DNA from: Desulfocurvibacter africanus subsp. africanus DSM 2603
GTDB lineage: Bacteria > Desulfobacterota > Desulfovibrionia > Desulfovibrionales > Desulfovibrionaceae
Direction of reading: 5' to 3'
NCBI RefSeq assembly: GCF_000422545.1
Contig: NZ_AULZ01000026.1
Span: 1 to 45,365 of the forward strand
DNA: 45,365 nucleotides
The notes under the pieces are model-generated. The model saw nothing but the letters and a program-made list of their open reading frames with translations. It was not told the DNA's origin and made no database searches. Position numbers and translations under genes: made by a program. Shown here in pieces: positions 19,151 through 32,501 of the stretch. Numbering within the stretch: the first letter of the stretch is position 1; the number at the start of each line of letters is the position of its first letter.

Positions 19151-19210
19151 TAGCTGATGCTCGCTTGAAGCCTGCACATGATCAAGGCCAGACCGGTCCA
19201 GAGGAAGATA

Positions 19211-22200
19211 GTGCCAGAGAACCGCGGGATGCAGACAAGCCATACGGAAGAGCCGGTCTCGCACGATCTTGATCTCGAAAGGGACGGGAGCGGCCCGAGG
19301 TTCTTCTTCGACAGGCGCGATTACGAACTGCTGCGCATAGTAAAAGATATTTCCCGGCGCAAAGGCACCCCGGCGCACAGAAGGCTTCTCGCGCCATATC
19401 TGCATCCCCACGGGATCAAGGAGATGGCTGCCCAGCGAGCGCTGCGCATCGCCTACGCCGTGGCCCACCTCCTCGACTCCCTGGAGATAGGCAAGGCTTC
19501 CGATCGCTTGGAGGCCCTGCGCTCCCTGCGCGAGGAGATCCTCTACACGGCGCAGGGGCCGCTGCGCGTCAATGCTTCCCGCGTGCTGATCGAAATCATG
19601 AAGAGGCTGCTCCGCAGCCAGGAGGACGATACCAGGCAGCTCGAGCTGGCCCACGATTTCCGGGCCGTGACCACCGGCCGTCCTCGGACGGTGCGCGAGC
19701 AGCTCAGGAAGTACCACCTGCTGGAAATGCCGGAGGAGTGGAACCAGGTTTCCTTCGACGACCATGTGCATGACGTCAACACCAAGGGCAGGAAGTCGGC
19801 TTCCCACCTGGTCATGGACGCCTGGATCAAGGGTATCCGGCGGCTGACGGTCATCTACTACCACTTCGTCCCGCGAGAGGCCGCCGAGGAGCTTCTGGAA
19901 GCCGCGGCGATCATGGACATCAAGGTCAGGATCGGCATCGAGTTCTTCACCCGCCACCAGCAACAGTTCGTCAAGATCATCTGGATACCGCGCGGTCTGA
20001 CGGATTCCCAGGGCTTCCTGAGCTTTCTCTCCTCACCGGCGGTCCAGGCGTTCATGGATCAGGGGCGTCAGGTCGCCAAGCATCACGAGGCGTATGTGCT
20101 CGAGGTGCTCCGCGAGTTCAACCGAACTCATCTGCCGGATATCAACGACACCTTCGGCCTGGATATGCCGCCTATTTGCGAGAAGGACTTCCTCTCGTTC
20201 GTCGGCTCGGGCCAGGTCTCCATCTTTCACTTGGGCAAGCTGATCCACGAGCGCCTGCTCCCGCTCATGCGTACGCGCACGGCGGGCCTCCATGCGAGCT
20301 ACCGTCAGGCGTCCGATGACGAGAAGGCAGGGATGGAGCAACTCGTGCGCAGGATGGACGGCTTCGATGCCCATGAGATCATCGAGCGGCATCTGCGCCC
20401 CGAAAGGAATCCAGGCTTGCCGGATCCGGACGCACCCTCCGAGCGCTCGCGGGTCGTTCCCGAACTGCGTACCCTCTCGATCGTGGAGCTGCTCGACCGC
20501 CTTTACAGCCTCCATCCCAAGCATCGGGTCGTGCTCGACCTGGACGGCCTGGCTGTCGAGCATGTGCTCGAACTGCTCTACGATTGCAGGGGCAGGATCA
20601 CCCACCTGGAGATCTTCAACCTCAAGAACAGCGCCCTGGGACGCGAGCCGGACCGCGAGCGCATCCTGCGCCTGCAGGCCGCGCTCCATTCCTCCAACGT
20701 CATGAAGCTTAAGCGGTTCATCACCGAACTCATCGCCAAGCCGGACGGATTGGAGGGCGACGGCCCCGGTCGTCGAGGTCACAAAGACAAGCTCGTCGAA
20801 ATTCTCTACGAGCTTCCTGCCTTCCAGGCTTGTTACAGGGATAAACCCCTAAAGATCAGCATCGGTTCCGACTCCACCGGGCAATCCGGGCGAATGCCCG
20901 GAATGGGGCTCGTGGTTAAGGATTCGCTGCCGAGGCACGTGCAGCTTGAACTGGAGCGAGCCAGTGCGCCTCATTGCGGAATACCCGTGGGGGTCACCGC
21001 GTACGCTCGGATAACCCGCGTGCCGTTGTCCAGGGCGAATGCCGTCTCTAGCGGCATGAATCGCCTCGTCCGCCGCATTCCTGGACTGAGCGTGCTCGGA
21101 TATCGGCATAAAACGGATTGGGTCATCGACGATTGCAAGTCTGCCAGCGAGGGAAACATCCATACCCTGGGCGGAGTGCAACGAATGGAAGGGAACGGCC
21201 TGCACTTGGTCGCGCCGGAGCGGAAGGAACAGAGCGCGGTCTCCCTCGAATACCTGAATACCGGGCTCAAGATCGGGCTCAAGATACTGGCGGGGTTCTT
21301 GGCGGCAAGCCTCACCTTCGCCCTGACCAAGAACGGGTGGCTGCTGGCCTACGGCGGGGCGCTGATCTGGTTCGCCATAACGGGCCTGCGGATCATCATC
21401 CAATCGGTGCTCGGGTGCGGCGGCATACACCGCTCATCGCGGCTCAAATGGGAAAGCTACGTGAGCTGGGACAGGCTGGCCGACTCGCTCCTGTTCAGCG
21501 GGCTCTCCGTGCCCCTGCTCGATTACATCGTGAAGACCGTCCTCCTCGAACGATCCTTCGGGGTCACCGTCACGACGAGCCCGGTCCTGCTCTATGCGGC
21601 CATGTCCCTGGTCAACGGCCTGTACATGGCCGGCCACAACCTCCTGCGCGGCCTGCCGAGGGAGGCGATCGTCGGCAACCTCTTGCGGAGCATCCTGGCC
21701 ATCCCTCTTGCCTTGGCATGCAGCGGCCTGGCCGGCGAACTGCTGCTTTTGGCCGGCGTCACTGGCGTGGGAGCTGTTCTCCAGCAGTGGGCGGCCGTCA
21801 TTACGAAGCTGGCCTCGGATTGCGTCGCAGGGGTGATCGAAGGGCTTGCCGACAGGGCCGAGCACCTGCGCATGCGTATTCGGGACTACTCCAGCAAGCT
21901 TAAACAGCTGTTTGCCCTCCATGGCCAAGTGGAGGTTCTCTTTCCATTGGAGGACGTCCCCTCTCTGCTGGAATCCAAAGAGTTCATCCAGACCCTTGAG
22001 TTCGAGCGAAGCGACCTGCTGAACATCGCCATTGTCAATGCCCTGGACCTTCAATACTTGTGGATGTATCAGCCGTGGTCAAGAAACGTCATCAAGCAGC
22101 TCGTGCGGGAAATGGGCGATGATGAGCGCCGGGTCTTTCTTTTTTCCCAGTACGTACTCTCCCAGGAGCGGCAGATCAGCCAGCTCCTGCTCGACGGTTT

Positions 22201-22336
22201 GGTAGGCAGGAACTTTTCCAAGGCCCTGGCCTTTTATGTTGGATACTGGCGGGAATACCTGAAGAGCATCACTAGGCTTGTGAGCGAGTGCTCGCCTGGG
22301 CTTCTTCGACACGAAAAGGTTATGGAATTCAGATAG
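19211..22336 (+). CDS. Large membrane-anchored protein with PHP-phosphoesterase-like motifs, function unknown
   Basis: A 1041-residue protein that I cannot assign to a named family. After a charged helical region (1-180) comes a stretch with the order of motifs seen in PHP (polymerase and histidinol phosphatase) metallo-phosphoesterases: DDHVHD (HxH at 185/187), YYHF (218), GIEFF (Glu244), LEIFN (about 466) and GSDSTG (about 551). The usual final His after SD is replaced and a long insert separates GIE from LEIFN, so activity is uncertain. About residues 688-737 and 790-863 are membrane segments, followed by a soluble helical tail. I chose GTG at 19211 because GAGGA lies five bases upstream; ATG at 19178 and 19229 are alternatives. 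It lies between glpR and the Ugp-like importer, behind a GlpR-type operator, so a role in G3P or glycerophosphoester metabolism is inferred. Confidence 0.75.
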   Translation: MPENRGMQTSHTEEPVSHDLDLERDGSGPRFFFDRRDYELLRIVKDISRRKGTPAHRRLLAPYLHPHGIKEMAAQRALRIAYAVAHLLDSLEIGKASDRLEALRSLREEILYTAQGPLRVNASRVLIEIMKRLLRSQEDDTRQLELAHDFRAVTTGRPRTVREQLRKYHLLEMPEEWNQVSFDDHVHDVNTKGRKSASHLVMDAWIKGIRRLTVIYYHFVPREAAEELLEAAAIMDIKVRIGIEFFTRHQQQFVKIIWIPRGLTDSQGFLSFLSSPAVQAFMDQGRQVAKHHEAYVLEVLREFNRTHLPDINDTFGLDMPPICEKDFLSFVGSGQVSIFHLGKLIHERLLPLMRTRTAGLHASYRQASDDEKAGMEQLVRRMDGFDAHEIIERHLRPERNPGLPDPDAPSERSRVVPELRTLSIVELLDRLYSLHPKHRVVLDLDGLAVEHVLELLYDCRGRITHLEIFNLKNSALGREPDRERILRLQAALHSSNVMKLKRFITELIAKPDGLEGDGPGRRGHKDKLVEILYELPAFQACYRDKPLKISIGSDSTGQSGRMPGMGLVVKDSLPRHVQLELERASAPHCGIPVGVTAYARITRVPLSRANAVSSGMNRLVRRIPGLSVLGYRHKTDWVIDDCKSASEGNIHTLGGVQRMEGNGLHLVAPERKEQSAVSLEYLNTGLKIGLKILAGFLAASLTFALTKNGWLLAYGGALIWFAITGLRIIIQSVLGCGGIHRSSRLKWESYVSWDRLADSLLFSGLSVPLLDYIVKTVLLERSFGVTVTTSPVLLYAAMSLVNGLYMAGHNLLRGLPREAIVGNLLRSILAIPLALACSGLAGELLLLAGVTGVGAVLQQWAAVITKLASDCVAGVIEGLADRAEHLRMRIRDYSSKLKQLFALHGQVEVLFPLEDVPSLLESKEFIQTLEFERSDLLNIAIVNALDLQYLWMYQPWSRNVIKQLVREMGDDERRVFLFSQYVLSQERQISQLLLDGLVGRNFSKALAFYVGYWREYLKSITRLVSECSPGLLRHEKVMEFR

Positions 22337-22588
22337 GAAATCGTGAGCCTCTGTTGCGGGCCGACCTCGGCGTCATGCGCCTTTGTCGGCCTGACGGCAC
22401 ACGACGGCCGCAGGAGCGGCTTACATCACAAGAGTGAAAGCGGAATCCAGGTCGGACGTTTCAGGGAGAGCCTGCGCCAAGAAGGTTCAGCCATCGGGCA
22501 ACGTCCGGCATAACGATAGGTAATAAGATCAAGATTTTTTGCAACACGGGTGTCCCCCACCTGGCAAGCCAAAATATCGGAGCACAAC

Positions 22589-23632
22589 TTGTCTGCGATC
22601 CGCATGGAACATGTCAGCCGTCACTGGGGTTCGGTACTTGCCGTCGACGATATCAGCTTTGAGGTGGAGCAGGGCAGTCTGCTGGTTCTGCTCGGCCCTT
22701 CCGGTTGCGGCAAGTCCACAACGCTGCGCCTGATCGCCGGGCTGGAGGAAGTCACCAGCGGCCATATCTTCATCGGCGACAAGCAGGTGACAAACCTTCC
22801 GCCCTCCCGGCGCCAATTGGCCATGGTCTTCCAATCCTATGCCCTTTTCCCGCACCTCACGGTCCGGGAGAACATCCTTTTCGGCCTCAAGGTGCGCAAG
22901 GTCCCCCAGGCGGAGCGGCGAAAGCGCCTGGCTCGCGCTGTCGATATCCTTGGGCTCGGCAGCCTCCTGGACCGCAAGCCCTCGGCCCTCTCGGGCGGGC
23001 AGCAGCAGCGCGTGGCCCTTGGCCGGGCCCTCGTGGCCGAGGCTTCGGTCTGCCTTATGGACGAGCCGCTCTCCAACCTGGATGCGAAACTCCGCCAGGA
23101 AATGCGGCGCGAGATTCGGGCGCTGCAGCAGTCGCTTGGAATGACCATGGTCTACGTCACGCACGATCAGGTCGAGGCCATGAGCATGGCCGACCGGATC
23201 ATTCTTCTGGAGGGTGGGCGCATCGTGCAGAACGGCACCCCGGCGGAGCTGTTCTCGCAGCCCGCGACGGTCTTCACGGCGAACTTCATTGGGACGCCGC
23301 CCATGAACCTTCTGGGCCTGTCCAAGTGTTCTTGCGGCATCACGATAGCCGGTTGCGACGAGGCCCGGGTTCCCCAGGCCGACTCTGCGGACCGCATCCT
23401 GGGCATCCGGCCCGAGCACTTGTTTTTCGATCCCGAGGGCGGCTGGCACGGGATCGTCGAAACCGTGGAGTATCTCGGATTCGGCTCCGTGGTCACCTGC
23501 CGGGTCGGCTCCGAAGCCCTGGCCGTGTCGGTCGAGGGCATGGTGACTCTCGCGCCGGGTTCGCAGGTGACTCTGCGCTATCTGCAGGACAGACTGCACT
23601 TCTTCCATAAGCAAACCGGGGAGCGAGTGTAG
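22589..23632 (+). CDS. ugpC: ABC importer ATPase, UgpC-like
   Basis: The 347-residue ATPase of the carbohydrate-uptake (CUT1/MalK) type energises import by two permeases. Walker A GPSGCGKST, Q-loop FQSYALFP, signature LSGGQQQRVALGRAL, Walker B VCLMDEPLSNLD and H-loop YVTHDQ are all present. A C-terminal TOBE-like regulatory region (about 240-345, ILGIRPEHL) follows. I chose TTG at 22589 because CGGAG lies six bases upstream and the protein then begins with SAIRMEHVSRHWG, as in the family; GTG at 22550 and ATG at 22604 are alternatives. Substrate G3P is inferred from the glp neighbours. Confidence 0.88.
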   Translation: MSAIRMEHVSRHWGSVLAVDDISFEVEQGSLLVLLGPSGCGKSTTLRLIAGLEEVTSGHIFIGDKQVTNLPPSRRQLAMVFQSYALFPHLTVRENILFGLKVRKVPQAERRKRLARAVDILGLGSLLDRKPSALSGGQQQRVALGRALVAEASVCLMDEPLSNLDAKLRQEMRREIRALQQSLGMTMVYVTHDQVEAMSMADRIILLEGGRIVQNGTPAELFSQPATVFTANFIGTPPMNLLGLSKCSCGITIAGCDEARVPQADSADRILGIRPEHLFFDPEGGWHGIVETVEYLGFGSVVTCRVGSEALAVSVEGMVTLAPGSQVTLRYLQDRLHFFHKQTGERV

Positions 23633-23734
23633 CAACCCGGTAGGAAACAGGCCGCGCGGACGGGATGACCCACCAGATTCGAAGAGCGCAAGGCCTTAAA
23701 AAGAAATGGGTTCTTAGGCTCGGTTATTGCTAAG

Positions 23735-23765
23735 TCGAAAGGCCCAAGAAGAACGTTTCGATAAT
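23735..23765 (+). promoter_or_regulatory. Candidate GlpR operator and -10 box upstream of ugpB
   Basis: TCGAAA (23735-23740) and TTTCGA (23756-23761) form an inverted pair 15 bases apart, overlapping GATAAT (23760-23765), a possible -10 box. The half-site is the same as at 19136-19150. No good -35 box is seen at the right distance. The gap 23633-23856 holds no gene. Confidence 0.45.
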
Positions 23766-23856
23766 CAGGTGAGGAGCGCACGCATTACCGCGGCATTCCC
23801 GATTGGGCGCGGCTGTTTCAGACGACCAACTGCCTTTGCTTAACTGGAGGTATGCT

Positions 23857-25152
23857 ATGTTTGGATTGGCCAAGGCTATCAAGTGCTTCCTGCTATCACT
23901 TCTTGCCATTTGCTGCCTGTCCGGCGCCGCATTTGCCAAGCAGACGGAACTCGTCTTCTATTTCCCCGTGTCAGTGGGCGGCCCCATCACGAAGATCATC
24001 GAGGGCATGACCACTGAGTTCATGAAGCAGCATCCGGACATCAAGGTGACCCCTGTCTACGCGGGCATCTACCGCGACACTCTCACCAAGGCCCTGACGG
24101 CCCTGCGTGGCGGAGAGCCGCCCCACGTAGCGGTGCTCCTGTCCACGGACATGTTCACTCTCATCGACGAAAACGCCGTGATTCCCTACGATGACATCCT
24201 TTCGCCGGCCGAGATGAGCTTCACCAAGAACTTCTTCCCCGGCTTCATGAGCAACAGCCAGACCGGCGGAAAGACCTGGGGCATTCCGTTCCAGCGTTCG
24301 ACCATCGTCATGTACTGGAACAAAGAGGCCTTCAAGGCTGCCGGACTTGACCCGAACACGCCGCCCAAGACCTGGGCCGAGCTCGTGTCTTTCGGCAAGA
24401 AGCTGACCAAGAAGGATGCCTCGGGCCAAGTCACCCAATGGGGCGTGGCCATTCCCTCCACCGGCTATGCCTACTGGCTGTTCCAGGCCCTGGCCATCCA
24501 GAACGGCGCCGAGCTCATGAACCAGGAAGGCACCAAGGTCTTCTTCGACCAGCCCAAGGCCGTGGAGGCTCTCCAGTTCCTCGTGGACCTGGCCTTCAAG
24601 CACGAAGTCTCCCCCAAGGGCACGATTGACTGGGCCACCACGCCCCGCGACTTCTTCGAGCGCAGGACCGCCATCATGTGGACCACCACGGGCAACCTGA
24701 CCAACGTGCGCACCAACGCCAAGTTCGACTTCGGCGTCGGCATGCTCCCGGCCAACGCCCGTCCCGGCTCGCCCACGGGTGGCGGCAACTTCTACATCTT
24801 CAAGAAGACCACGCCCGAGCAGCGCAAGGCGGCGGTCACCTTCGTGCAGTGGATGACCACCGCTGATCGTGCCGCCCAGTGGGGCATCGACACCGGCTAT
24901 GTCGCCGTGCGGCCCGATGCCTGGCAGACCAAGCAGATGAAGGCGTACGTCAAGGGCTTCCCCTACGCCGCCGTCGCCCGCGACCAGCTGGAGTACGGCG
25001 TGGCCGAGCTCTCCACGCACGACAACCAGCGCGTGACCAAGGCTCTGGACGACGCCATCCAGGCCGCGGTGAACGGCTCCAAGAAGCCTGCGGACGCCCT
25101 CAAGGACGCCCAGAAGGAAGCCGAGCGCATCCTGCGCCGCTACAATAAGTAA
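23857..25152 (+). CDS. ugpB: ABC importer periplasmic binding protein, UgpB-like
   Basis: The 431-residue extracellular solute-binding protein (family 1) has a Sec signal peptide with likely cleavage after AFA (residue 27). The mature protein has the two-lobed pattern of sugar and glycerol-phosphate binders: ELVFYFPVSVGG, YAGIYRDTLTKALTALRGGEPPHVAVLLSTD, and the hinge segment GIPFQRSTIVMYWNKEAF. UgpB proteins share the FPVxxGGPI-like start and the FQRSTPVLYYNK-like hinge, so G3P or a glycerophosphodiester is the likely ligand. Start ATG with GGAGG six bases upstream. It is followed by a GC-rich stem-loop before the permease genes, a pattern that keeps the binding-protein mRNA abundant. Confidence 0.9.
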   Translation: MFGLAKAIKCFLLSLLAICCLSGAAFAKQTELVFYFPVSVGGPITKIIEGMTTEFMKQHPDIKVTPVYAGIYRDTLTKALTALRGGEPPHVAVLLSTDMFTLIDENAVIPYDDILSPAEMSFTKNFFPGFMSNSQTGGKTWGIPFQRSTIVMYWNKEAFKAAGLDPNTPPKTWAELVSFGKKLTKKDASGQVTQWGVAIPSTGYAYWLFQALAIQNGAELMNQEGTKVFFDQPKAVEALQFLVDLAFKHEVSPKGTIDWATTPRDFFERRTAIMWTTTGNLTNVRTNAKFDFGVGMLPANARPGSPTGGGNFYIFKKTTPEQRKAAVTFVQWMTTADRAAQWGIDTGYVAVRPDAWQTKQMKAYVKGFPYAAVARDQLEYGVAELSTHDNQRVTKALDDAIQAAVNGSKKPADALKDAQKEAERILRRYNK

Positions 25153-25163
25153 GCAGCTTAGTC

Positions 25164-25185
25164 GGGGGCCGGGCAACCGGCCCCC
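25164..25185 (+). promoter_or_regulatory. Intercistronic stem-loop between ugpB and ugpA
   Basis: GGGGGCCGG, a GCAA tetraloop of the stable GNRA type, then CCGGCCCCC: a perfect 9-bp stem 12 bases past the ugpB stop. No T tract follows, so it is more likely an mRNA-stabilising or partial-termination element than a full terminator. Confidence 0.6.
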
Positions 25186-25208
25186 ATTAAGGGATCGTGG
25201 AGGGGGTT

Positions 25209-26090
25209 GTGACCTACTTTGCCAAGATGCGCCATGTGAACGCATGGCTGTTCCTTCTGCCGGCGATGGCCCTGATAGTGGCCTTCACCCACGTGCCGGC
25301 AGTGAATACCTTTATCAACAGCTTCTTCTTGGATGGTAGGGGAGGCATGCCCGCCGAGTTCGTGGGGCTCGAGAATTTCCGCTATCTTCTTGAGGACGAG
25401 GTTTTCCTCAAGGTGTTGAGAAACAACCTCCTGTTCGCCTCCGGCACGATACCTCTCTCCATCTCCCTGGCCATGGTCATGGCCCTGCTGGTCAATGCCA
25501 AACTGCCTGGCCAGGCCTGGCTCCGGCTGTCCTATTTTGTGCCCACGGTGCTCCCGATGATCGCCGTGGCGAACATCTGGCTCTTCTTCTTCACGCCCGA
25601 GTACGGCTTGCTGGAACAGGTCCGGAGCTTCCTCGGCTTCTCCGGCGTCAACTGGCTGGGCAGCGAGAGCACGGCCCTGATCTGTATTATCGCAGTGGCG
25701 GTATGGAAAGACGCCGGGTTCTTCATGATCTTCTATCTTGCGGCCTTGCAGCAGGTCCCCCCGTCGCTTGGCGAGGCGGCCATGCTGGAGGGCGCATCCC
25801 GGTTCTGCTACTACCGCAGGATCGTATTTCCCCTGCTCATGCCCACGACTCTGTTCGTGCTGGTGAATGCCACCATCAACGCCTTCCGCATGGTGGATCA
25901 CCTTTTCGTGCTGACCCAGGGAGGGCCGAACAACGCCAGCTCCCTGCTGTTGTACTACATCTACGAGGTCAGCTTCAAATACTGGGACACCGGCTACGGC
26001 GCGACCTTGACCCTGGTGTTACTGGGATTCCTCGGCCTGGCCTCCATCATTCAGTTCGGCGTCATTGAAAAGCGAGTCCATTACAGATGA
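25209..26090 (+). CDS. ugpA: ABC importer permease, UgpA-like
   Basis: The 293-residue integral membrane permease (MalF/UgpA type) has six predicted helices and the EAA loop (LGEAAMLEGASRFCYYRRIVFPLL, about residues 189-212) that docks on the ATPase. I chose GTG at 25209 because GGAGGGG lies just upstream; GTG at 25197 lacks a ribosome binding site. Its stop overlaps the next start as ATGA (26087-26090), which couples the two permeases in equal amounts. Confidence 0.9.
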   Translation: MTYFAKMRHVNAWLFLLPAMALIVAFTHVPAVNTFINSFFLDGRGGMPAEFVGLENFRYLLEDEVFLKVLRNNLLFASGTIPLSISLAMVMALLVNAKLPGQAWLRLSYFVPTVLPMIAVANIWLFFFTPEYGLLEQVRSFLGFSGVNWLGSESTALICIIAVAVWKDAGFFMIFYLAALQQVPPSLGEAAMLEGASRFCYYRRIVFPLLMPTTLFVLVNATINAFRMVDHLFVLTQGGPNNASSLLLYYIYEVSFKYWDTGYGATLTLVLLGFLGLASIIQFGVIEKRVHYR

Positions 26091-26920
26091 GCACCGCGAA
26101 TATCTACGACGGCAAGGGCATCTATCGCTATCTCGACACCGCAGCGGCCTGGACGCTGGCCATCCTGTGGGGAATGCCACTGCTCTACGCGATCTGGACG
26201 GCCTTCCACCCGGCGGAGTTCTCGACAAGCTTCAACCTGATGGCGCCGCTCACGCTCGACAACTTCCGCAAGGCTTGGAACGCCGCGCCTTTCGCGCGCT
26301 ACTTCGTCAACACGTTCATGCTCGTGACCCTGGTCCTCTCCGCGCAGCTTGTCCTGTGCACCCTGGCGGCCTATGCCTTCGCCAAGTACGATTTCCGGGG
26401 CAAGACCATCCTGTTCGCGCTCGTGCTCATGCAGCTCATGATCATGCCCGACGTGCTCATCGTGGAGAACTACCGGACCATGGGCCGCATCGGCATTCTC
26501 GACTCCACGCTCTCCATAAGCTTGCCGTACATGGCCTCGGCCTTCGGCATCTTTCTTCTGCGCCAAGCCTTCAAGTCGATTCCCAAGGAACTCGACGATG
26601 CCGCAGCGGTCGAAGGCGCGGGTCCCTTGCAGATCCTCTGGCGCGTGTACGTCCCGCTCGGACGGCCCGTCTATCTGGCGTATGCGCTGGTTTCGGTGAG
26701 CTATCACTGGAACAACTTCCTGTGGCCGCTCCTCGTAACCAATACCGTCAATTCGCGGCCGCTCACGGTGGGACTGCAGGTCTTCTCCTCCACCGAGCAG
26801 GGCGTGGACTGGTCGATCATCACCGCGGCGACGCTGATGACGTCCGGCCCGCTGCTCTTGGGCTTCCTGCTATTCCAGCGGCAGTTCGTGCAGTCGTTCA
26901 TGCGGGCCGGCATCAAGTAG
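26087..26920 (+). CDS. ugpE: ABC importer permease, UgpE-like
   Basis: The 277-residue second permease (MalG/UgpE type) has six membrane segments and the EAA loop KELDDAAAVEGAGPLQILWRV at about residues 168-188. It pairs with UgpA to form the channel. Its start overlaps the ugpA stop; the HD-domain gene follows nine bases after its stop. Confidence 0.9.
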   Translation: MSTANIYDGKGIYRYLDTAAAWTLAILWGMPLLYAIWTAFHPAEFSTSFNLMAPLTLDNFRKAWNAAPFARYFVNTFMLVTLVLSAQLVLCTLAAYAFAKYDFRGKTILFALVLMQLMIMPDVLIVENYRTMGRIGILDSTLSISLPYMASAFGIFLLRQAFKSIPKELDDAAAVEGAGPLQILWRVYVPLGRPVYLAYALVSVSYHWNNFLWPLLVTNTVNSRPLTVGLQVFSSTEQGVDWSIITAATLMTSGPLLLGFLLFQRQFVQSFMRAGIK

Positions 26921-27781: not shown

Positions 27782-27863
27782 CCGCGTATTCCAGCAGATG
27801 CGCATAGGGCCGTATAACCGAGCTTTGTTCAACCGTTCGGCCATATCGATCAAAAACAAAATA

Positions 27864-27900
27864 AGCCCTGCCAGCGATCGCGCCGGCAGGGCTTTGTATT
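27864..27900 (+). terminator. Terminator of the Ugp-like operon
   Basis: AGCCCTGCC and GGCAGGGCT form a 9-bp stem around GCGCGATCGC-like loop sequence, followed by TTTGTATTGTT. It lies about 80 bases past the HD gene. Confidence 0.75.
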
Positions 27901-27950
27901 GTTAAGAGGAAGGCTGGGCCAACCTCGATATGGAATCGGGGCAGCGGCTT

Positions 27951-28075
27951 AGCGCAGATTGCTTTTAAGACGCCCGCTCCGGCGTTGACGGCGCAAGTGA
28001 ATTGCGCCTACGCCTACGCGGCGGCAAGCCATGCCGACGCATGGCTTGCAGAGCATTTTGAAAAGCAAATGCTCT
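27951..28075 (-). repeat. Dispersed repeat R1, copy C (inverted)
   Basis: Reverse complement of copy B with few changes; the hairpins AGAGCATTT..AAATGCTCT, GCAAGCCATGC/GCATGGCTTGC and GGCGCAA/TTGCGCC are kept. Its outer AGAGC end overlaps the TAG stop of the selenoprotein gene at 28074-28076. Confidence 0.92.
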
Positions 28076-29369
28076 AAAGTCCCAACTGCAGCAGGTCCTC
28101 GCCCAGGTAGATGCGTTCATTTTCGCCCAGAATGCCGAGCGACAGGCAGATGAGCGTCCACAGATGCACCGTGTGCCATGCTCCATCGAACTGCTCGGAC
28201 ATGTCGTGGATTTGGGCATGGCAGTTGTGGCAAGGCGTGATGCAGTACTGCGCGCCAGTGGCCAGGATCTGCTCGGCCTTGCGCATGCCGTAGGCCCGCC
28301 GCTGCTTCTGGAAGCCCCCCTGCAGAGCCCCGCCTCCGCCTCCGCAACAGTAGTTGTTGGACTTGTTCGGATACATCTCCACGAAGTTTTGATCTCCAAC
28401 CAGGGTACGCACCACGAAACGTAGATCGTTGGCCACTTCGTCGCCAAGCGACTTGCGCACGAGCTGACAGGGATCCTGGACAGTGAATTTGATGCCGCGG
28501 TCGTTCCAGGCGGAGTTAACCTTTAATCTGCCCTCGCGTATCCACCGCGCGTAGTAGGTGATGATGCTTTCCAGCCGGAAAGAGGGGGTGATGCCGAAGC
28601 GCTGCAGTCCGGACCGGACCGCGTAGAACTCGTGCCCTCACTCGGTGTGGAGCCAGACCTTGCAACCCAGCGTCTCCACGGCCTCGACCTTGGTGCGGAG
28701 GATCTTTTCCCAGCCCTCGTCGTCGGCCGCGAACATACAGTAGTTCTCGGCGGCCCAACCGCGGGAGGCATAGGTCCAGTCCGCGCCGACATGGTCGAGG
28801 ACCTTCCACAGGGGCACCATCTCGTCCGGCTCCACCGCGGGCTCACGGGAGTTCTGGGTAAGGAAGAAGTGCGCGCCCTGGCGGTTCATGGGCGCTTTCA
28901 GATTATCGAATCCATCCTGGGTCGAACGGACCTCTTCAAGGACATCATCCACCACGAACTCGAAATCCTGCGGGGACACGCCCATGGCTGAACATGTCGG
29001 GGTGCGCAGGGCTTGGTCGCAGGAGCCGACGATGCCTTTGGGGCGCTTGTCGCGCGGCCACCGCGCGCGTGCCTCGTAGACAAGGGCGGGGATGTCGATT
29101 TTCGCAGGGCAGACATGCGTGCAGCGGCGGCACAGGGTACACATCCACACCCAGGGAGTCGTGGTCAGGGCCTCGTCCATGCCCAGGACCGCCATGCGCA
29201 GGAACTTGCGCGGATCCATGCGCTCCAGGCCAGAGGCTGGACAGCCGGAGGAGCACAGCCCGCACGAAAGGCACATGTCTAGGTTGACTCCGCGCGGCAG
29301 CATTTCCGAAGCTATCTGCCTGAACCGGGAGGGTTGGCTGTCGGACATGGGTTCGATGGTGAGATTCAT
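28074..29369 (-). CDS. Selenocysteine-containing Fe-S electron-transfer protein (DsrK/HdrD/GlpC-like)
   Basis: I read 28074-29369 as one 431-residue protein with Sec at residue 244 (TGA at 28640-28638). Two [4Fe-4S] motifs, C33-x2-C36-x2-C39-x3-C43P and C77-x2-C80-x2-C83-x3-C87P, are followed by a CCG domain with exact spacing: C301-x39-CC(341-342)-x36-C379-x2-C382. This domain binds the noncubane cluster in HdrB/HdrD-like enzymes. The TGA lies in TE-U-GH, where DsrK/HmcF/TmcB-type proteins have ECGH. The frame continues open and family-like for 187 codons, and a SECIS-like hairpin follows. Start ATG has GGGAG seven bases upstream. It is divergent from glpA-glpB, which lack a glpC, so it probably carries electrons from G3P oxidation to the quinone or to a membrane complex. 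A simple stop would leave a 243-residue fragment. Confidence 0.8.
28604..28622 (-). promoter_or_regulatory. SECIS-like hairpin downstream of the in-frame TGA
   Basis: On the minus strand GCGGTCC-GGTC-CGGACTGC folds as a 7-8 bp stem with one G-U pair and a GGUC-containing apical loop. The loop starts 22 bases after the TGA, inside the 16-37 base range known for bacterial SECIS elements; E. coli fdhF has GGUCU in its loop at 18 bases. The element is within the coding sequence, as in other bacteria. Confidence 0.7.
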
Positions 29370-29446
29370 GACTTTTCTCCCTGAGCAAATGCAGTCTGTC
29401 GAGGATCTTCATCCCTGGCGTCCGGATCATTACCCGGGGCAAAAAA

Positions 29447-29496
29447 TTTCGCAACTGAAAACCTGAATTGCGAAATCGAAAATTAACGGCTATGTT
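29447..29496 (+). promoter_or_regulatory. Predicted glpA promoter and GlpR operator
   Basis: TTTCGCAA (29447-29454) and TTGCGAAA (29468-29475) are a perfect inverted pair, followed by ATCGAAAAT. TTGCGA (29468-29473), 17 bases and TATGTT (29491-29496) form a sigma-70-like promoter, so a repressor on the dyad would block it. The site lies between the divergent selenoprotein gene and glpA and could control both. Confidence 0.55.
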
Positions 29497-29513
29497 TGGC
29501 CGGTGTGAAGAGA

Positions 29514-29551
29514 CTGGCGCGCGAGGCGCGATCTCGCGTATCCCGCGCCAG
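29514..29551 (+). promoter_or_regulatory. Leader hairpin upstream of glpA
   Basis: CTGGCGCG (29514-29521) and CGCGCCAG (29544-29551) pair perfectly, with an inner CGAG/CTCG stem. It is in the predicted glpA leader, 23 bases before the start codon, and could stabilise or attenuate the message. Confidence 0.45.
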
Positions 29552-29574
29552 ACCCGGCATCCATGGGGAGAACC

Positions 29575-31173
29575 ATGAAGACTCAGTGCGACATCTTGCG
29601 AACTCAGGTCCTTGTCATCGGCGGCGGCGTGACAGGCGCAGGCATCATGCGCGATCTCGCCTTGCGCGGCATGCATTGCGTGCTCGTGGAAAAGAGGGAC
29701 GTCAACGCCGGCGCGTCGGGCGGCAACCACGGCCTGCTGCACAGCGGAGCGCGCTATGTCCTGAGCGATCCCATGGCCGCAGCCGAGTGCCGGGAGGAAG
29801 GGGATCTGCTCAAGCGGCTCGCGCCGCAGTGCATCGAGGATACCGGCGGGCTCTTCGTGGCCATGCCGGGCGATGACGAGTCCTACGCAGCCGACTTCCC
29901 TAATTTGTGCGCCAAGGCAGGCATTGCTGCCAAGTCAATGGCGCCCTCCGAGGCCCTAACCCTGGAATCTGCCCTTTCCGGCGAGCTTGTCGCGGCCTTC
30001 CATGTTCCCGACGCCTCCATTGATCCTTTCCGGCTCAGTCTGGAGATGATCGCCCATGCCCGCGAGCTGACGGGTTGCAACTTGCTTCGCGGTATGTGCG
30101 TCATCAATTTCGAAATTTTCGACGGACGCATCGTGCGCGCCCACTGCCTTGAGGCGAAAACCGGCCGCAAGCTGATCATCGAGCCGGAGCAGGTCGTGAA
30201 TGTCGCCGGAGCCTGGTCCGGTAAGGTCGCTGCCCTGGCGGGCGCGCATATCCCCGTGCTCTATTCGAGCGGAACGCTGCTCGTGACCAGCGAGCGAATC
30301 GCCCGGCGCGTCATAAACCGGCTGCGTCCGCCCGCGGACGGCGACATCCTTGTGCCGGGCGGCACAGTTTCCATTCTGGGCACCACGAGCGTGCGCATCG
30401 CCGACCCGGATATGTGCCGCCCGTCCGCCGCCGAGGTGGACCTGAACATCGAGCAGGGCGCAAGCATGATTCCGGCCCTGCGCTCCATCCGCTACATCCG
30501 GGCGTACAGCGGGGTACGCCCGCTGCTCATGGCGAACACCGGCGCAGGCGACGACCGCGCCCAAAGTCGCGGCTTCGCGCTCTTCAACCACGAAGCCGAA
30601 GGGCTCACCAACTTTCTGACCGTCACGGGCGGCAAGCTCACGACGTTCCGTCTCATGGCCGAGAAGGCGGCGGACTTGGTGGCGCGGCGTCTCGGCGTTG
30701 GCGCGCCCTGTTTGACGCGCAGCGTGCCCTTGCCGGAAATCGGCGGCTGCGAGTGGACTGGGCCGGGACGCTCTCCCCGCGCATGGCTGGCCCGTAAGGA
30801 AGAGGATGGACCTTTGCTGTGCGAGTGCGAGATGGTCTCGGCGCATACCGTCGACGAGCTCACGAAGGACTGCCATGTGGATGCGGAAGACCTCGGCATC
30901 TCCGCGCTGGGCGTGCGCAGCCGTATCGGCAAGGGTTCATGCCAGGGAGCTTTCTGCGGCCTGCGCGTCACAGCCCATCTGTACGATACCGGCAAGTGCG
31001 CCTCCAGGCGCGGCCTTCTGAGCATGCGAGATTTCTTCGCCAATCGCTTCAAGGGGCAAAGGCCTATCCTATGGGGTGCCCAGATGCGGCAGTATGAGCT
31101 GGCCGAGGCTCTGCATTGCGGGCTAATCAGCCTGGAGATGCTCCCCTCCCACAAACCGGACGAGGTGCGCTGA
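29575..31173 (+). CDS. glpA: Anaerobic glycerol-3-phosphate dehydrogenase, subunit A
   Basis: The 532-residue flavoprotein oxidises sn-glycerol-3-phosphate to dihydroxyacetone phosphate. FAD-binding VLVIGGGVTGAGIMRDLALRG lies near the N-terminus; ASGGNHGLLHSGARYV and VTGGKLTTFRLMAEKAADL are GlpA/GlpD signatures. The C-terminal Cys-rich segment (CECEMV, then GSCQGAFCG) is a BFD-like [2Fe-2S] domain, found in GlpA but not in aerobic GlpD. I chose the ATG at 29575 because GGGGAG lies four bases upstream; ATG at 29563 would include that site as codons. glpB follows after two bases; the place of glpC is taken by the divergent Fe-S gene. Confidence 0.93.
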   Translation: MKTQCDILRTQVLVIGGGVTGAGIMRDLALRGMHCVLVEKRDVNAGASGGNHGLLHSGARYVLSDPMAAAECREEGDLLKRLAPQCIEDTGGLFVAMPGDDESYAADFPNLCAKAGIAAKSMAPSEALTLESALSGELVAAFHVPDASIDPFRLSLEMIAHARELTGCNLLRGMCVINFEIFDGRIVRAHCLEAKTGRKLIIEPEQVVNVAGAWSGKVAALAGAHIPVLYSSGTLLVTSERIARRVINRLRPPADGDILVPGGTVSILGTTSVRIADPDMCRPSAAEVDLNIEQGASMIPALRSIRYIRAYSGVRPLLMANTGAGDDRAQSRGFALFNHEAEGLTNFLTVTGGKLTTFRLMAEKAADLVARRLGVGAPCLTRSVPLPEIGGCEWTGPGRSPRAWLARKEEDGPLLCECEMVSAHTVDELTKDCHVDAEDLGISALGVRSRIGKGSCQGAFCGLRVTAHLYDTGKCASRRGLLSMRDFFANRFKGQRPILWGAQMRQYELAEALHCGLISLEMLPSHKPDEVR

Positions 31174-31175
31174 AC

Positions 31176-32501
31176 ATGTCCCGTGATATCCGTGAATGCG
31201 ATCTGGTGGTCATCGGCGCCGGCCTGGCTGGCTCGGCCGCAGCCCTCTTCGCCGCCAAGCGTGGATTGAGCGTCGTACAGGCAGGTGGCACCGGCGCCAT
31301 CGCGTACACGAGCGGGTACTTCGACGTCCTCGGCGCGGTTCCTCCTCGCGGTCCCGAGGGTGGCATCCATCTGGTGGAAAAGCCATTTCAAGGCCTTGAT
31401 GAGCTGCTGGCTAGCTATCCAAGGCATCCGTACTGGCTGACATCCCCTGGATTAATCAAAGCCGCCCTGGCGGAGTGGATGGATTTCCTCGCCAACCGTG
31501 GGCTGCCCTACGTGGCCGAGACGGAAACAAACGTTGTCGCACCATCTCCCGCTGGAACTCTCAAGCACACCTATGCGCTGCCGGAAACCATGTGGCCCTT
31601 TGTCAGGCTCCTCAAAGAAAAGCCCGCCTGCCTGCTTGTCGACTTTCATGGTCTCAACGGATTCAGCGCCCGTCAGGTGGCGGCCAACCTGCTGCCCCTC
31701 TGGCCTGGCTTGCGTGCGGAGCGCATTCACTTTCCCGGCCACGCAGGAGGAGAAGTCTTCCCCGAAAACGCCGCCCGTTCCCTGGAGTTGCCCAAGCATC
31801 GCGAAACCCTGGCCGAGGCCGTTAGGCCCCTGCTAGGCGATGCGACCTGCCTCGGCCTGCCCGCGCTCCTGGGCATGAACGGTTGCGGGGCGGTGTGTGC
31901 CGATCTTGAGGAACGTCTCGGCGTGACGGTGTTCGAGATCCCCACCATGCCGCCGTCAGTGCCGGGCATCCGCCTGCGGGAGGCCGTGGAGAACGGTTTG
32001 CCTGAGCTTGGGGTCGAACTATACTCCCAGCAGATGGTTCGCCTGGAGAGGATGGAAAGTAGCGGTCTGGAATTCACCATCCATGGTCAATCCATGGAGC
32101 GTCGAGTGCGCTGCCGGGGAGTGATATTGGCTTCGGGGCGGTTTCTGGGAGGAGGCTTGGCGAGCACGCAGACCGAGGTGCGGGAGACGATTTTCGACCT
32201 ACCCGTGGCCCAGCCCGAAGACCGCTCCGGATGGCACCGGCTCGACTATTTCGATCCGCGCGGACACCCTGTCCACCAAAGCGGCATTGAGGTGGATGAA
32301 CGGTTCCGGCCGCTCGGCGCAGGCGGCAAGCCCGTGTGTCCGACATTGTTCGCGGCTGGTTCGATCCTGGCCCATCAGGATTGGATGCGCATGAAGTGCG
32401 GCGCTGGAGTCGCCTTGGCTACCGCCCTCGGCGCGGTGGAGTCGCTCATCGCGGAACTGGGCACGGTCTCGGGTGACCTGGCCACGGTGCCGGCAGGTTG
32501 A
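31176..32501 (+). CDS. glpB: Anaerobic glycerol-3-phosphate dehydrogenase, subunit B
   Basis: The 441-residue flavoprotein-like subunit works with GlpA at the membrane. The N-terminal CDLVVIGAGLAGSAAALFAAKRG binds a dinucleotide; GLPALLGMNG, ILASGRFLGGGL and the C-terminal CGAGVALATALGA fit GlpB. Start ATG at 31176 follows the glpA stop by two bases, with GAGG inside the end of glpA. Length is close to E. coli GlpB (419). Confidence 0.92.
   Translation: MSRDIRECDLVVIGAGLAGSAAALFAAKRGLSVVQAGGTGAIAYTSGYFDVLGAVPPRGPEGGIHLVEKPFQGLDELLASYPRHPYWLTSPGLIKAALAEWMDFLANRGLPYVAETETNVVAPSPAGTLKHTYALPETMWPFVRLLKEKPACLLVDFHGLNGFSARQVAANLLPLWPGLRAERIHFPGHAGGEVFPENAARSLELPKHRETLAEAVRPLLGDATCLGLPALLGMNGCGAVCADLEERLGVTVFEIPTMPPSVPGIRLREAVENGLPELGVELYSQQMVRLERMESSGLEFTIHGQSMERRVRCRGVILASGRFLGGGLASTQTEVRETIFDLPVAQPEDRSGWHRLDYFDPRGHPVHQSGIEVDERFRPLGAGGKPVCPTLFAAGSILAHQDWMRMKCGAGVALATALGAVESLIAELGTVSGDLATVPAG

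Follow-up and report, generated by a model that had tools for sequence, protein, structure and literature searches.

A probable selenocysteine-containing HdrD-like iron–sulfur protein encoded beside glpAB in Desulfocurvibacter africanus and its relatives

What is the product of a gene that lies divergently beside glpAB in Desulfocurvibacter africanus, resembles the iron–sulfur subunits HdrD and GlpC, and is interrupted by a TGA? We examined this locus in a window of 45,365 nucleotides (the whole stretch of DNA analyzed, contig NZ_AULZ01000026.1) from a genome of 4.4 Mb in 40 contigs. The features needed for the argument are as follows.

28074..29369, minus strand: selenocysteine (Sec)-containing HdrD/GlpC-like Fe-S protein (Sec-HdrD), 431 aa, Sec at residue 244
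28638..28640, minus strand: in-frame TGA, read as selenocysteine 244, motif E-U-G-H
29241..29273, minus strand: first 4Fe-4S motif, C33-x2-C36-x2-C39-x3-C43
29109..29141, minus strand: second 4Fe-4S motif, C77-x2-C80-x2-C83-x3-C87
28221..28469, minus strand: Cys set of the C-terminal CCG domain, C301, C341, C342, C380 and C383, presumed to bind a non-cubane cluster
29563..31173, plus strand: GlpA-like glycerol-3-phosphate dehydrogenase subunit, divergent, 193 bp from the Sec gene
31116..32501, plus strand: GlpB (539.5 bits, cut-off 345)
22550..26920, plus strand: Ugp-like sn-glycerol-3-phosphate ABC transporter (ATPase, binding protein, two permeases)

The frame from 29369 to 28074 contains a single TGA, at 28640-28638, with 243 codons ahead of it and 187 behind, and the gene runs divergently from glpAB, next to which no canonical glpC occurs, both as the original prediction had it. 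The predicted protein has a mass of ~48.6 kDa (computed with Cys for Sec), and Pfam places Fer4_8 at residues 30-91 and CCG at residues 296-387. The spacing predicted for the CCG domain, C-x39-CC-x36-CxxC, was correct in its first interval and wrong in its second, since the Cys positions give C301-x39-C341C342-x37-C380-x2-C383. The protein lacks a clearly hydrophobic segment (best 19-residue mean 1.33, compared with 2.04 in a membrane-protein control from locus L188). The divergent neighbor passes the cut-off of the GlpA model PRK11101 (461.2 bits, cut-off 425) and falls below that of TIGR03377 (529.4 bits, cut-off 552.8). On the side of the Sec gene opposite glpAB lie an HD-domain gene and then the Ugp-like transporter, whose substrate is only surmised because the best-named models score below their cut-offs. 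The window also holds a 1052-aa open frame (19178-22336) with no Pfam match at 1e-5.

A pseudogene or a sequencing error, with the TGA being a real stop or a miscall, has one point in its favor, namely that the standard list of open reading frames splits the gene at the TGA, as had been expected of gene callers. Among 132 distinct close family rows, however, residue 244 is encoded by TGA in 119 and by a Cys codon in 13. These rows are tblastn hits of more than 400 bits spanning residue 244, one per identical 150-base stretch and including the window; six weaker paralogue rows, all Cys, were left out, and the set is skewed to close relatives, being composed of 80 of 204 confirmed matches and places from a search of the same taxonomic family. 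Two of the TGA-bearing rows are further family copies in the same genome as the window (C6:130516 and C2:64918), and the shared position of the TGA in these paralogues and in most homologues makes sequencing error or decay improbable. The second half of the frame is open and conserved, as is a hairpin just past the TGA (described below). We therefore rejected pseudogene, frameshift and miscall alike, and consider an explanation of this kind scarcely credible.

A survey of the same taxonomic family (149 genomes) gave 57 places with at least 60% identity (window included), 44 of them with an in-frame TGA and 13 without; genome G008, first shown with a TAG, reads as Cys at the residue-244 place, and an extra TAA in G011 and G051 is the end of the protein, at about residue 422. 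In a phylum sample of 395 genomes, with at most four first-look candidates scored per genome, 44 had a family match at E 1e-150 or better among the matches listed, comprising at least 63 places, 48 with an in-frame TGA counted anywhere in the frame and irrespective of position. The residue-244 column is invariant in an alignment of 42 proteins (Sec written as C) that includes four paralogues with 29-31% identity. Cys thus occupies this place in the 13 close homologues and in those four paralogues, which agrees with the proposal that Sec stands at the Cys of an ECGH motif. Parsimony requires five Sec/Cys changes on the tree. In five genomes (L137, L141, L143, L144 and L145), one Sec and one Cys member of the family stand in tandem, possibly as a pair for selenium-replete and selenium-poor conditions.

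The genome also encodes the machinery for selenocysteine insertion, with matches over the cut-off for selA (620.6 bits), selB (390.4 bits), selD (333.3 bits) and tRNA-Sec (86.1 bits), the last with the anticodon tca according to ARAGORN. The selD gene has its own in-frame TGA, at ASG*AAK, which we take to be the position known to hold Sec or Cys in SelD. Four weaker matches that pass the tRNA-Sec gathering score in the same genome (G000:C15:81658, C7:157167, C15:463 and C35:7660; 49-53 bits compared with 86 for the best) are probably other tRNAs. From the machinery, the TGA/Cys column and the conserved hairpin, the window gene is very probably a selenoprotein gene and not a pseudogene, in agreement with the original prediction; a gene that annotation would split or label broken is thereby rescued.

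The hairpin begins 15 bases past the TGA, as predicted; it is conserved in the Sec genes of the family and weak in the Cys genes.

28604..28622, minus strand: SECIS-like hairpin, GCGGUCC-GGUCC-GGACUGC

All seven of its seven base pairs form in the window. We compared it with shuffled sequences that preserve the protein and use each gene's own codons. For the window, the minimum free energy (MFE) is −13.3 compared with a mean of −5.1 in the synonymous shuffles, and 2 of 50 shuffles retain as many pairs; the hairpin in the window alone is therefore modestly beyond chance, and conservation across the family carries the case. Among 107 distinct 45-mers from Sec genes, seven pairs form in 60, six in 44 and five in 3, while the 13 Cys genes have six pairs in 3 and five or fewer in 10. 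In 111 distinct Sec stretches, a mean of 6.55 of 7 pairs (4.25 when shuffled) and an MFE of −11.84 (−5.01 when shuffled) were found; the corresponding values for the 13 Cys genes were 4.31 pairs (3.48) and −3.18 (−2.78). From this comparison, the protein sequence accounts for part of the pairing and not for the excess in Sec genes. The pairing fell to 0.58-2.40 pairs when one side of the hairpin was slid by 1-3 bases. Three of the seven pairs show two-sided compensatory changes (in 2, 4 and 7 sequences), 38 of the 107 Sec sequences have a broken outermost pair, and the apical loop starts with GG in most family hairpins. A search of 28400-28800 against Rfam returned no SECIS family; its two hits, both to snoRNAs, were at the level of chance (E 2.4 and 3.5). 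Judging from these parts and their conservation, SelB and Sec-tRNA would read the UGA, guided by the hairpin just downstream. No promoter or terminator emerged from a scan of 27900-29700. Just outside the scanned region, at 27851-27894 on the minus strand, a GC-rich inverted repeat, GCCCTGCC...GGCAGGGC, is followed by a T-rich run and looks by eye like an intrinsic terminator; two more hairpins, also noted by eye and with no T run, directly follow the Sec gene at about 28024-28077.

To which family does this protein belong? It had been described as HdrD/DsrK/TmcB-like, and this stands as a likeness in the Fe-S plus CCG architecture, which is the same in TmcB, HmcF and DsrK. These are the closest NCBIfam models (166.9, 163.7 and 106.8 bits, respectively), and all three were rejected as equivalogs, the scores being far below the cut-offs of 735, 750 and 400. 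TmcB, HmcF and DsrK belong to transmembrane complexes. Canonical GlpC (TIGR03379) shares the architecture and the likely role as the third GlpAB subunit, but only the window protein has Sec; this equivalog was rejected as well (25.1 bits, cut-off 279.9), and no TIGR03379 match over the cut-off exists anywhere in the genome.

The label "probable new-context selenoprotein" in the original prediction was an overstatement. A Sec family called "Fe-S oxidoreductase (GlpC)" or "Fe-S oxidoreductase-like protein", PTHR43551, was reported in a 2006 survey (PMC1794560), is placed under COG0247 GlpC in a 2022 review (PMC9312934) and appears in a 2026 review with the motif UGH (PMC13188914); an Fe-S oxidoreductase is also named among Sec proteins, with no further detail, in PMC8318568. 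In Desulfobacterium autotrophicum HRM2, a Sec HdrD4 and a Sec HdrF2 were described in 2009, with hdrF1 and hdrF2 clustered with glpAB (PMC2702500). Because of these reports, we regard the window gene as a further member of a known selenoprotein family. Like the window protein, the published Sec GlpC family has Sec at U-G-H in a CCG Fe-S oxidoreductase of Desulfobacterota; its published operon is an hdrA-frhD-frhG-frhA cluster (PMC1794560), and relatives found here likewise sit in hdrA-mvhD-vhuA clusters. The available portions of these sources do not mention a glpAB neighborhood for that family, whereas the branch of the window sits beside glpAB. HdrD4 and HdrF2 are HdrC plus HdrB fusions with Sec, as in the window, and HdrF2 is likewise next to glpAB; by its published description, HdrF2 has transmembrane helices (PMC2702500), unlike the window protein. 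What we add here is a glp-linked branch of soluble Sec-HdrD, with 14 loci beside glpA(B); our search of one open-access library found no published description of a soluble Sec-HdrD beside glpAB.

The extent of this branch was determined by mapping the neighborhoods of the 132 rows in tblastn searches with 13 panel proteins. The family gene adjoins glpA in 14 loci, head-to-head in 11 (the window, L052, L053, L054, L055, L135, L152, L153, L154, L155 and L183) and collinear after glpB in three (L146, L180 and L181). Twelve of these loci have Sec and two Cys (L135 and L146). The contigs of L053, from Salidesulfovibrio brasiliensis, and L054 end inside glpA, showing part of that gene and leaving glpB out of view. 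Because L052 is a Desulfomicrobiaceae record and L054 is from Desulfonatronum, the linkage extends beyond one taxonomic family. On a quick maximum-likelihood tree, all 14 loci fall inside one set of 19 rows (SH-aLRT 88) that also holds five non-glp rows, and ten of them, window included, form one clade (SH-aLRT 94); the linkage needs two changes on the tree. Naturally occurring Sec and Cys members with a shared gene order, such as L181 and L146, would allow the role of Sec beside a CCG cluster to be tested cleanly.

Among the other 118 rows, 66 have hdr, met or vhu genes nearby and 52 have no panel gene nearby, in part because contigs end. It could be argued from these 66 of 132 rows that Sec-HdrD is a selenoprotein of the Hdr/Mvh network which serves flavin-based bifurcating HdrA complexes, its placement beside glpAB being incidental, and the paralogue on C6 of the same genome (L132) fits this, with the order hdrA-hdrC-hdrB-uspA-gene. 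The gathering of the 14 glp loci in one part of the tree, in two different gene orders, speaks against it, and we find this reading improbable. Synteny with glpA is not proof of a complex. Our preferred reading, which we hold to be probably correct, is that Sec-HdrD is a genuine selenoprotein that acts as a soluble, HdrD-like third subunit of GlpAB, an electron wire with Sec244 beside a cluster.

The predicted structure bears on the place of Sec244. The AlphaFold2 model of Sec-HdrD (pLDDT 88.7, pTM 0.88) matched EtfD best among solved folds (9ojn; Z 25.1 over 365 residues, 2.7 Å, 17% identical), followed by an uncharacterised Helicobacter protein (3kwl, Z 20.7), HdrB chains (Z 19.5-20.5; 5odc_B 19.5) and a LutA model (Z 19.3). 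EtfD and HdrB/HdrC (5odc) are thus the closest named solved folds. The alignments to HdrC chains lie inside residues 26-114 and those to EtfD/HdrB cover the remainder; Sec-HdrD would be a soluble fusion of an HdrC-like module, bearing two cubane 4Fe-4S motifs, with a CCG module of the HdrB type. Unlike the window protein, EtfD has a membrane domain, an extra linear cluster and Cys instead of Sec at the residue-244 place. In a profile alignment, Sec244-G-H246 aligns on Cys581-P-His583 of EtfD; Cys581 is among the four residues that bind the linear cluster D1, and the non-cubane cluster D2 has His583 as a ligand (PMC13083937). The D2 Cys set of EtfD (637, 672, 673, 709 and 712) corresponds to C301, C341, C342, C380 and C383. 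The window protein does not have two intact CCG Cys sets: in the same alignment, the D1 ligands 503, 538 and 584 have no Cys counterpart, leaving Sec/Cys 244 as the only one kept of the four D1 ligand positions. FadF and DgcB likewise do not have the D1-binding Cys (PMC13083937). Because the other three D1 Cys have no counterpart, Sec244 may be a lone selenolate, or an atypical ligand, by the non-cubane cluster. On the model, we infer that Sec244 would be a selenolate at the vacated D1 site, with a wire made of D2 and the two cubanes.

Under the preferred reading of a GlpAB subunit, G3P would be oxidized to DHAP on GlpAB and Sec-HdrD of the glp branch, judging from synteny, would be the third, electron-accepting subunit. 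Electrons would pass via the CCG cluster and then the two cubanes, presumably onward to a carrier and the menaquinone pool or the enzymes of sulphate reduction, and Sec244 near the non-cubane cluster might tune or gate their entry. Sec is typical of redox-active sites. This, together with the HdrB-like fold and the presence of Sec at an otherwise vacant cluster site, would also suit a thiol-disulphide reductase in place of a wire, in which Sec244 attacks a disulphide or trisulphide (e.g. of DsrC) at the CCG site and GlpAB is the electron donor, as Hdr does with CoM-S-S-CoB. The corresponding region of EtfD acts as a wire (PMC13083937), which argues against the reductase, and we regard it as unlikely. 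A bolder proposal, which we consider quite doubtful, joins the two: a Sec-dependent GlpABC variant in which soluble Sec-HdrD replaces canonical GlpC and its lone selenolate, instead of only conducting electrons, reduces a disulphide or DsrC trisulphide, driven by G3P oxidation. If the preferred reading holds, a selenoprotein is probably the subunit that "glpAB without glpC" lacks in part of the Desulfovibrionales, and a Sec family known since 2006, for which the sources cited here describe no tested biochemical role, gains a testable electron donor.

How general is this pairing? We surveyed GlpB in the 149 genomes with the homologous part of the window gene (31173-32498), defining window-type GlpB as at least 42% identity, and found 34 places in 30 genomes. 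The family gene lies within 5 kb of 11 of the 34 (nine TGA, two Cys), and at no place among the 34 did canonical GlpC match with at least 150 bits within 10 kb on the same contig; in G008, a canonical GlpC adjoins another GlpB that is 33% identical. Of the 23 places with no family gene, 20 were fetched (G068, G078 and G107 were left out). Thirteen of the 20 have HdrB-like genes, some also HdrC-like ones, about 2.3 kb or less after glpB, and at the remaining seven the panel matched no Hdr-type gene. In the phylum sample, ten GlpB places (E 1e-80) lie outside the taxonomic family, and none of these ten is within 5 kb of a family match among those listed (E 1e-150). Because of the 11 of 34 and the zero of ten, GlpAB does not need Sec-HdrD. 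To judge from gene order, Hdr-type genes, Sec-HdrD among them, are frequent but not constant partners of GlpAB in these bacteria.

Locus L188 (7621-11839) runs from glpA and glpB through genes for a multi-Fe-S membrane protein and a CCG protein of the HdrB type to an FGGY-family kinase gene. This would be a second GlpAB partner, of the membrane type, in genome G044, where the Sec type occurs as well, and the gene order resembles that of the published HdrF next to glpAB. In L197, a frame named FGGY-type kinase-like by its similarity to the L188 frame comes straight after glpB. Elsewhere in the family, hdrA, mvhD (frhD-like), frhB and vhuA (frhA-like) surround the gene in L060, L061, L065, L066, L086 and L128. 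In L071, L082, L095, L104 and others, Sec-HdrD stands beside hdrA, mvhD, metF and a gene for the methylene-THF reductase C-terminal domain (DUF5981), a gene order that suggests a selenoprotein in an Hdr-linked methylene-THF reductase complex.
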